DNA of 64,000 nucleotides, from contig NZ_BMFJ01000001.1 in the NCBI RefSeq assembly GCF_014638275.1, positions 2,468,338-2,532,337 of the forward strand, in the 5' to 3' direction. The notes under the pieces were generated by a model. That model was not told the DNA's origin. It made no database searches and saw nothing but the letters and a program-made list of their open reading frames with translations. The translations under genes were made by a program, and so were the position numbers. Positions 46,965-47,160 of this stretch are shown in pieces (the first letter of the stretch is position 1; every line of letters starts with the position of its first letter). This DNA is from Primorskyibacter flagellatus. Its GTDB lineage: Bacteria; Pseudomonadota; Alphaproteobacteria; Rhodobacterales; Rhodobacteraceae.

Positions 46965-47160
46965 GGATCGACGTCATGGCGGTTCCGGGGCGCGGGCTTG
47001 GCCGTCTTCCCTTGCGGGGGCGGCACCTTGTCCGGCGGGGCTCCTCCTCCCGGCGGGGTGCTGCGCGGACGGTCCTACCGTTGCGGGGGCAGCGCCGGGT
47101 TCGCACCGGCTTCCCGGAAAGCAGCGCCGAAGCCCTGCCTTGCCTGGGCCGGTGATAGCG
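46965..47160 (-). promoter_or_regulatory. Cobalamin (B12) riboswitch upstream of gbcA
   Basis: On the minus strand GGGAAGCCGGTGCGAACCCG, GCGCTGCCCCCGCAACGGTA follows exactly the conserved B12 riboswitch core. Downstream come GGTGCCGCC, then GGGAAGACGGCC, and the closing CCCCGGAACCGCCATGACGT, matching the GGGAAG and AxACCxGCC parts of the fold. Cobalamin binding normally turns the downstream gene off. The only downstream gene is gbcA, whose ATG is about 110 bases further on. The rest of the 532-bp gap between gbcA and the divergent flavin reductase gene shows no gene; its right part must hold both promoters. Confidence 0.87.

Follow-up and report, generated by a model that had tools for sequence, protein, structure and literature searches.

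Described cobalamin-regulated isozymes and betaine demethylases

B12 riboswitches are established regulators of isozymes (PMC3766115, PMC2211319, PMC9600662), with "isozymes of B12-dependent enzymes" forming a category in PMC3766115 and the metE/metH case being treated in PMC9600662. At metE and ribonucleotide reductase genes, as at the locus described here, an RF00174 aptamer leads the gene for the replacement of a B12-dependent enzyme. The present case would differ in that a Rieske oxygenase is set against a corrinoid methyltransferase system, in a catabolic step rather than as a biosynthetic isozyme, and in that its product would be formaldehyde as opposed to the methyl-tetrahydrofolate (methyl-THF) of the corrinoid route.

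Several characterized demethylases bear on the comparison. GbcAB (Pseudomonas, and BmoA of Chromohalobacter) is, like the pair studied here, a two-component Rieske system with an NRECxxC signature; unlike it, our pair falls below the NCBIfam GbcA and GbcB cutoffs, and SoxA/SoxB neighbors are found at 0 of 29 riboswitch loci. Stc2, the stachydrine demethylase of S. meliloti, and the protein of PDB entry 3n0q (Ruegeria sp. TM1040) lie on the same branch as our oxygenase; the Stc2 clade is without the riboswitch in its 19 scored rows, unlike the TM1040 3n0q gene, which has one. The presumed B12-dependent counterpart is MtgBCD(E), a betaine demethylase and split methionine synthase that is unrelated to the Rieske oxygenases and uses no O2, and parts of which are encoded in the genome under study. 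Ruegeria pomeroyi uses MtgC and MtgD for methionine synthesis as well as for the demethylation of glycine betaine, and genomes with GbcAB but without MtgBCDE, such as that of Citreicella SE45, have MetH (PMC12478193). In that article, the word riboswitch appears solely in the title of a reference. Within the open-license PMC literature, we recognized no report of a betaine or Rieske demethylase linked to a cobalamin riboswitch, and as far as searched, the pairing is unreported there; an earlier mention is possible in RegPrecise, in the PMC3766115 supplements, or in subscription papers.

A leader derived from a cobalamin riboswitch

We analyzed a 64,000-nucleotide stretch of the Primorskyibacter flagellatus genome (the window), in which an earlier note, prepared from the letters alone, had recognized a conserved cobalamin aptamer core on the minus strand. 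The covariance search that it called for bore this out. The RF00174 (Cobalamin) model matched positions 47070-47116 of the minus strand with 32.0 bits against a gathering threshold of 31.5 (E = 2.3e-4 in the 64-kb window and 2.2e-6 in a 601-base stretch), the match ending 216 nt upstream of the oxygenase/reductase pair (Table 1) and covering model positions 45-169 with 79 positions skipped, that is, essentially the core. A further model, R1, built from 23 relatives with the window left out, recovered positions 47048-47141 with 42.7 bits (E = 2.2e-9), and the core is again essentially all that aligns. The window leader is a homolog of cobalamin riboswitches. Its genome (G000; 4.61 Mb, 93.9% complete) has two RF00174 matches, this one and one of 94.9 bits followed by a CbiM-domain gene and cobW.

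Table 1. Features of the oxygenase locus in the window
Feature	Coordinates	Strand	Remarks
Cobalamin-riboswitch-derived leader	46979..47145	-	Aptamer extent approximate, peripheral parts diverged
Intact conserved aptamer core, GGGAAGCCGGTG...CTGCCCCCGCAACGGTA	47076..47115	-	27/27 invariant core columns
Conserved hairpin TCCGC-GGGTG-GCGGA, CCGCGGGTGGCGG	46953..46967	-	Exact; 3' of aptamer, probable part of expression platform
Shine-Dalgarno-like AGGAGG	46861..46866	-	7 nt before oxygenase ATG
Rieske group Vb betaine N-demethylase, oxygenase subunit (most likely; 3n0q/Stc2 branch, GbcA-like)	45627..46853	-	
FAD/[2Fe-2S] reductase partner (GbcB-like)	44548..45630	-	NF058606 358.9 bits, cutoff 500
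TPP-dependent enzyme	42647-44293	-	Possibly read through
Peptidase M19	41586-42650	-	Possibly read through

Of the columns that show no variation among the 23 relatives, the window copy keeps every one within the core and 16 of 29 outside it (13 lost). The relatives thus have the aptamer at full length, including its conserved peripheral motifs and the B12 box, and the window does not, a degeneracy that the note had missed, and on account of these outer losses we term the window copy riboswitch derived. Its P4 reads CGG/CCG as against TGG/CCA in the relatives, by eye a compensatory change. The minimum free energy fold of the window leader was no better than those of shuffled sequences (z = 0.17) and is uninformative.

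The score of 42.7 bits cannot by itself place the leader with those of the oxygenases, because R1 gives oxygenase leaders 107-174 bits and other cobalamin riboswitches 41-95 bits. We place it among them because the hairpin CCGCGGGTGGCGG is exact and lies at the spacing seen in the relatives, 150 nt from the core in the window versus 146-162 nt in the 23 relatives; the closing pair of this hairpin is T-A in the window versus A-T in most of the 23.

Control is probably exerted on translation, through hairpins that separate the aptamer from the Shine-Dalgarno site. This is suggested by the alignment of the relatives, which keep a conserved GCCGC...GCGGC hairpin directly before the Shine-Dalgarno site; a terminator-type expression platform was considered, and the alignment shows this hairpin there instead. 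We infer the level of control, since covariation in the downstream leader of the relatives is slight (2 of 20 pairs, neither in the GCCGC...GCGGC hairpin) and the window leader, examined by eye, is without that hairpin. Loop-loop pairing of L5 with the downstream hairpin was sought without result, the duplex scores being dominated by GC-rich stem sequence.

Conservation of the pairing and decay of individual leaders

The conservation check likewise proposed in the note came out in its favor: the pairing of riboswitch and oxygenase recurs across Rhodobacterales. The oxygenase is present in 16 of 22 genomes of the genus, one of these being a 42% relative, and a same-strand cobalamin riboswitch stands just upstream of it in 7 of the 16 (G000, G004, G008, G009, G010, G014, and G019). 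About 0.002 such coincidences would be expected in the genus, which rules out chance pairing. With R1, the element was found immediately before the oxygenase at 22 of 80 loci of other genomes, and 6 of the 10 genus loci scanned also have it there. Among seven plasmid loci, hand-picked from 40 listed matches of 319 matching records, it is present in three, with RF00174 scores of 109.7 bits in Ruegeria sp. TM1040, 119.3 bits in P. gallaeciensis DSM 26640, and 102.8 bits in Tritonibacter mobilis; R1 did not find it at the plasmid oxygenase loci of Salipiger abyssi, Sagittula sp. P11, Pseudosulfitobacter sp., and Sinorhizobium medicae. Overall, RF00174 gave 80.9-119.3 bits for eight relatives' oxygenase leaders, and the genes of TM1040 and P. 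gallaeciensis DSM 26640 carry the full riboswitch. At least one pair-keeping double change was observed in 22 of the 40 aptamer pairs among the 23 relatives. The pairing, found in genus genomes, in loci of other genomes, and on plasmids, is real and conserved across genera, and is best studied in the relatives.

On the protein tree of the oxygenases, the riboswitch label needs 8 changes, a count that excludes the PDB3n0q row, labeled riboswitch free by default although the TM1040 gene has one. Ancestral presence with repeated loss would be the simpler reading, favored because leader features are shared and relics are present; gains are also possible.

The genus leaders form, by eye, a series of decay. 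L010 has a wrecked aptamer (15 of 29 outer invariants, 16 of 27 core columns), and L015 and L016 keep the downstream hairpin alone, as AACCGCGGGCGGCGGT in both, the remnant in L010 being AACCGCGGGGAGCGGT; no model matched before the oxygenases of any of the three. The hairpin outlives the aptamer in these three leaders, as though it were functional in its own right. Copies outside the model training, namely those of L006, L008, L057, and L068, keep all 29 of 29 outer invariants, L126 keeps 24 of 29, and three nrd riboswitches keep 22 of 29.

Seen against this series, the window riboswitch could itself be a decaying relic, B12 control having been lost or being lost and the gene being constitutive or otherwise controlled. 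We consider the chances of this to be evenly balanced, because the window keeps about as few of the outer invariants as the ruined leader L010 does. It also scores only 32.0 bits with RF00174, compared to 92.9-110.8 bits in six other same-genus copies, and the genome of L010 (G015) has a MetH-type match and no MtgC match. Yet random decay would not spare the core preferentially, and the core is complete in the window against 16 of 27 columns in L010; the exact hairpin at its ancestral spacing, with a swapped closing pair, and the by-eye compensatory change in P4 argue in the same direction. The window aptamer is probably decaying, and since it is partly degenerate, B12 control in this genome may be weakened or lost. 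This reading concerns the window copy alone and is compatible with the explanation offered below for the family.

The oxygenase, its partners, and the probable substrate

The best PDB relatives of the oxygenase are 3n0q (696.9 bits) and Stc2 (656.0 bits), and the TM1040 oxygenase, whose gene carries the riboswitch, is the 3n0q chain itself (403/403 residues). The window protein has the group Vb signature NRECxxC, with Asn at the position of CntA Tyr203, the bridging Glu, and the Cys pair, the register being assigned by eye and the meaning of the signature being taken from PMC7948474 and PMC10952381. Against the NCBIfam GbcA model (NF058607), it scores 521.3 bits, below the cutoff of 670, and we rejected the GbcA equivalog label on this ground; a search of the genome with the same model returned this oxygenase as its sole match and no protein above the cutoff. 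The protein is most likely a betaine N-demethylase, with glycine betaine as a candidate substrate. The earlier note had named the downstream genes gbcA-gbcB and called them the only ones: the Rieske oxygenase/reductase pair stands, but both members miss the cutoffs for those names, and after a 254-nt gap beyond the reductase gene, two more minus-strand genes follow, encoding a TPP-dependent enzyme and a peptidase M19. Of the 97 further regions in the comparison, 88 have a reductase-like open reading frame (ORF), and the relatives' regions contain few or no ORFs similar to the other two genes.

The substrate might instead be proline betaine (stachydrine) or another betaine, with the switch set against a different MttB-family member; we regard this as a possible but less probable assignment. 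Stc2 is the closest relative of known substrate that we found, and group Vb includes both glycine betaine and proline betaine demethylases (PMC7948474). The window, however, lies outside the Stc2 clade, whose 19 scored rows include none with the riboswitch. Rows of that clade moreover have a nearby LysR gene (18 of 19) and a nearby StcD-like NADH:flavin oxidoreductase (PF00724; 14 of 19), and the P. gallaeciensis pair has in its vicinity a gene whose annotation is glycine betaine ABC transporter substrate-binding protein.

The presumed corrinoid counterpart and its co-occurrence with the riboswitch

The search for a corrinoid system that the note had suggested was successful in the window's genome, which encodes a protein with 80% identity to an MtgC-type protein of Roseibium, an MtgD with 69% identity, two MttB-superfamily proteins, and a PF02574/MtgE-type protein. 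Naming as MtgC is by similarity, the NCBIfam MtgC models matching the Roseibium query best but below their cutoffs. A B12-dependent counterpart (MtgC, MtgD, and MttB homologs) is thus encoded in the same genome as the oxygenase, the betaine activity of the MttB proteins being putative. A MetH query against this genome found three separate genes, those for the MtgE-type protein, MtgC, and MtgD, and nothing else, so no single-gene MetH; PF01717 proteins (MetE or core-MetE) were likewise not found there. Because of these two results, the visible methionine synthase is, if the assembly is complete, a split B12-dependent type having MtgC and MtgD in common with betaine demethylation. That these are the sole visible methionine synthase parts had escaped the note.

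We compared loci with and without the riboswitch, counting the window as riboswitch bearing and leaving out L165 and L166 (oxygenases identical to those of L077 and L053), both PDB rows, and the outgroup of 42% identity. MtgC was sought in 50 of the 80 loci of other genomes (all 22 with the riboswitch and 28 others) and in all 22 genus genomes; two of the matches, those in G043 and G007, run across one TGA. G007 and the P. endophyticus genome (G058) agree in both matches and positions, are apparently one genome, and point to Pseudooceanicola as the probable genus. All 29 of 29 riboswitch rows have MtgC, versus 20 of 34 others (Fisher, 3.9e-5), an association that offers only 1-2 informative independent pairs and loses significance when phylogeny is taken into account; 20 MtgC-bearing rows have an oxygenase without a riboswitch. 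By a strict count on a hand-set list, from which MttB-like (L057, L107) and MetF-like (L113, L172) matches were excluded, B12-linked neighbors occur at 11 of 29 riboswitch rows versus 7 of 64 others, with no trend on independent pairs, and of the 7 loci without a riboswitch, three (L053, L169, and L170) have relics. Given so few informative pairs and the lack of a neighbor trend, common ancestry could yield both associations. Neighbors of betaine catabolism and its associated regulators (LysR, StcD-like, SoxA, SoxB, and GbdR-like AraC) show the reverse, 3 of 29 riboswitch loci versus 47 of 64 others; the names SoxA, SoxB, LysR, and GbdR-like AraC are backed by family matches, that of GbdR-like AraC being below the cutoff. 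P. gallaeciensis, which is outside this count, has a LysR gene near its oxygenase pair.

The neighborhoods in relatives contain B12-independent isozyme genes, which the note had not noticed. Riboswitch loci L159-L162 adjoin metH and core-MetE. In L164 (G010), a second, divergent riboswitch precedes core-MetE and nrdEF, and L056, L060, and L073 adjoin nrdEF with a riboswitch of its own. In L078 and L081, a gene set of MtgC, DUF1638, MtgD, and RACo diverges from the oxygenase; the opposite flank of the oxygenase pair in L078 has a formate-THF ligase, with a similar ORF in L081, and the L078 ORF at 4660-5559 looks MetF-like by eye, no family having matched. The core-MetE gene of G018 (C59:12508-13979) has a riboswitch ending ~170 nt upstream. 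As separate observations, L164, L073, and L059 have back-to-back divergent cobalamin riboswitches, one toward the oxygenase and one in the opposite direction, and in L164 (G010) and G018 a putatively riboswitch-controlled core-MetE occurs in aerobic marine bacteria. PMC12478193 raises the suggestion that core-MetE production may be confined to cobalamin-limited conditions, which fits the riboswitch before core-MetE in both L164 and G018.

The presence of core-MetE raises an explanation in which it would form, with the oxygenase, an O2-dependent, B12-free methionine route. The analogy is with the MesD/MesX pair, which reportedly requires O2 and MesX. Core-MetE lies within a few kilobases in five genus riboswitch loci (L159-L162 and L164), in L164 behind its own riboswitch. 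We nevertheless judge such a partnership highly improbable: the core-MetE of these loci is missing from 13 of 22 genus genomes, and Rieske demethylation gives formaldehyde and no transferable methyl group. As a universal explanation it was set aside, the window's genome having no PF01717 protein.

A proposed B12-sparing switch in betaine demethylation

The explanation that we favor by a modest degree, on the comparative data, is that in the relatives a corrinoid-repressed Rieske betaine demethylase takes over when B12 is short, sparing MtgC and MtgD. The window leader would descend from a B12 riboswitch whose full aptamer, in the relatives, is predicted to bind a corrinoid and to repress the oxygenase when corrinoid is plentiful. 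With B12 present, betaine would be demethylated by corrinoid methyl transfer, from MtgB to MtgC and on to MtgD and tetrahydrofolate. With B12 short, repression would lift and the O2- and NADH-dependent oxygenase/reductase pair would take over; the methyl group would then leave as formaldehyde, and the common MtgC and MtgD would remain for methionine synthesis. A B12-free demethylase would relieve competition, because MtgC and MtgD are common to the two pathways. Repression is assumed since the corrinoid riboswitches known before PMC10653944, where the first activating one is described, repress. The isozyme switching proposed in the earlier note is partly supported by the covariance match, the conserved pairing, and the corrinoid system in the genome, but has to be qualified for the window itself, whose copy is partly degenerate; the B12-sparing idea gains support from the comparative evidence.

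Derepression might, alternatively, serve mainly to supply one-carbon units: with B12 short, methionine synthesis would stall and trap 5-methyl-THF, and formaldehyde from betaine would refill the other folates. Formaldehyde is the product of GbcAB (PMC12478193), the methionine synthase parts found in the genome are solely of B12-dependent types, metH adjoins in several relatives, and the formate-THF ligase of L078, with the similar ORF in L081, stands beside the oxygenase pair. Since the co-occurrence with MtgC is explained less directly in this way, we think it an unlikely main purpose.

Extended to the lineage, the B12-sparing explanation would describe a regulon of marine Rhodobacterales, with riboswitches on class Ib ribonucleotide reductase, core-MetE, and the Rieske betaine demethylase. 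Osmolyte demethylation would be switched from corrinoid/tetrahydrofolate transfer to O2-dependent formaldehyde release, MtgC and MtgD would be freed for methionine, and repeated losses would leave relics, such as that in the window. This larger proposal is tentative, and we hold it a little less probable than not. If it is true, B12 supply would decide the betaine route and the C1 product in some of these organisms, and algal-bacterial vitamin exchange would be linked to osmolyte turnover. The pairing suggests that these cells may degrade betaine, which is common in the ocean, by a B12-free route under B12 scarcity. PMC12478193 reports that few marine bacteria have gbcAB and that its level in TARA data is low, which limits the reach of the idea.

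Other elements in the window

The window contains further regulatory elements. A SAM/SAH riboswitch (10241-10289, minus strand; 55.1 bits) lies immediately upstream of metK (9053-10234; TIGR01034, 516.7 bits), a tandem glycine riboswitch at 306-480 (minus strand) has two aptamers of 39.2 and 48.6 bits, and a serC leader element occupies 56917-56968 (plus strand; 64.5 bits). Finally, a tcuA/tcuB-type pair is encoded at 39084-41496 (plus strand), and because its TcuA also matches NCBIfam CobZ_N-term, a link to oxidative precorrin chemistry is possible in place of tricarballylate use.
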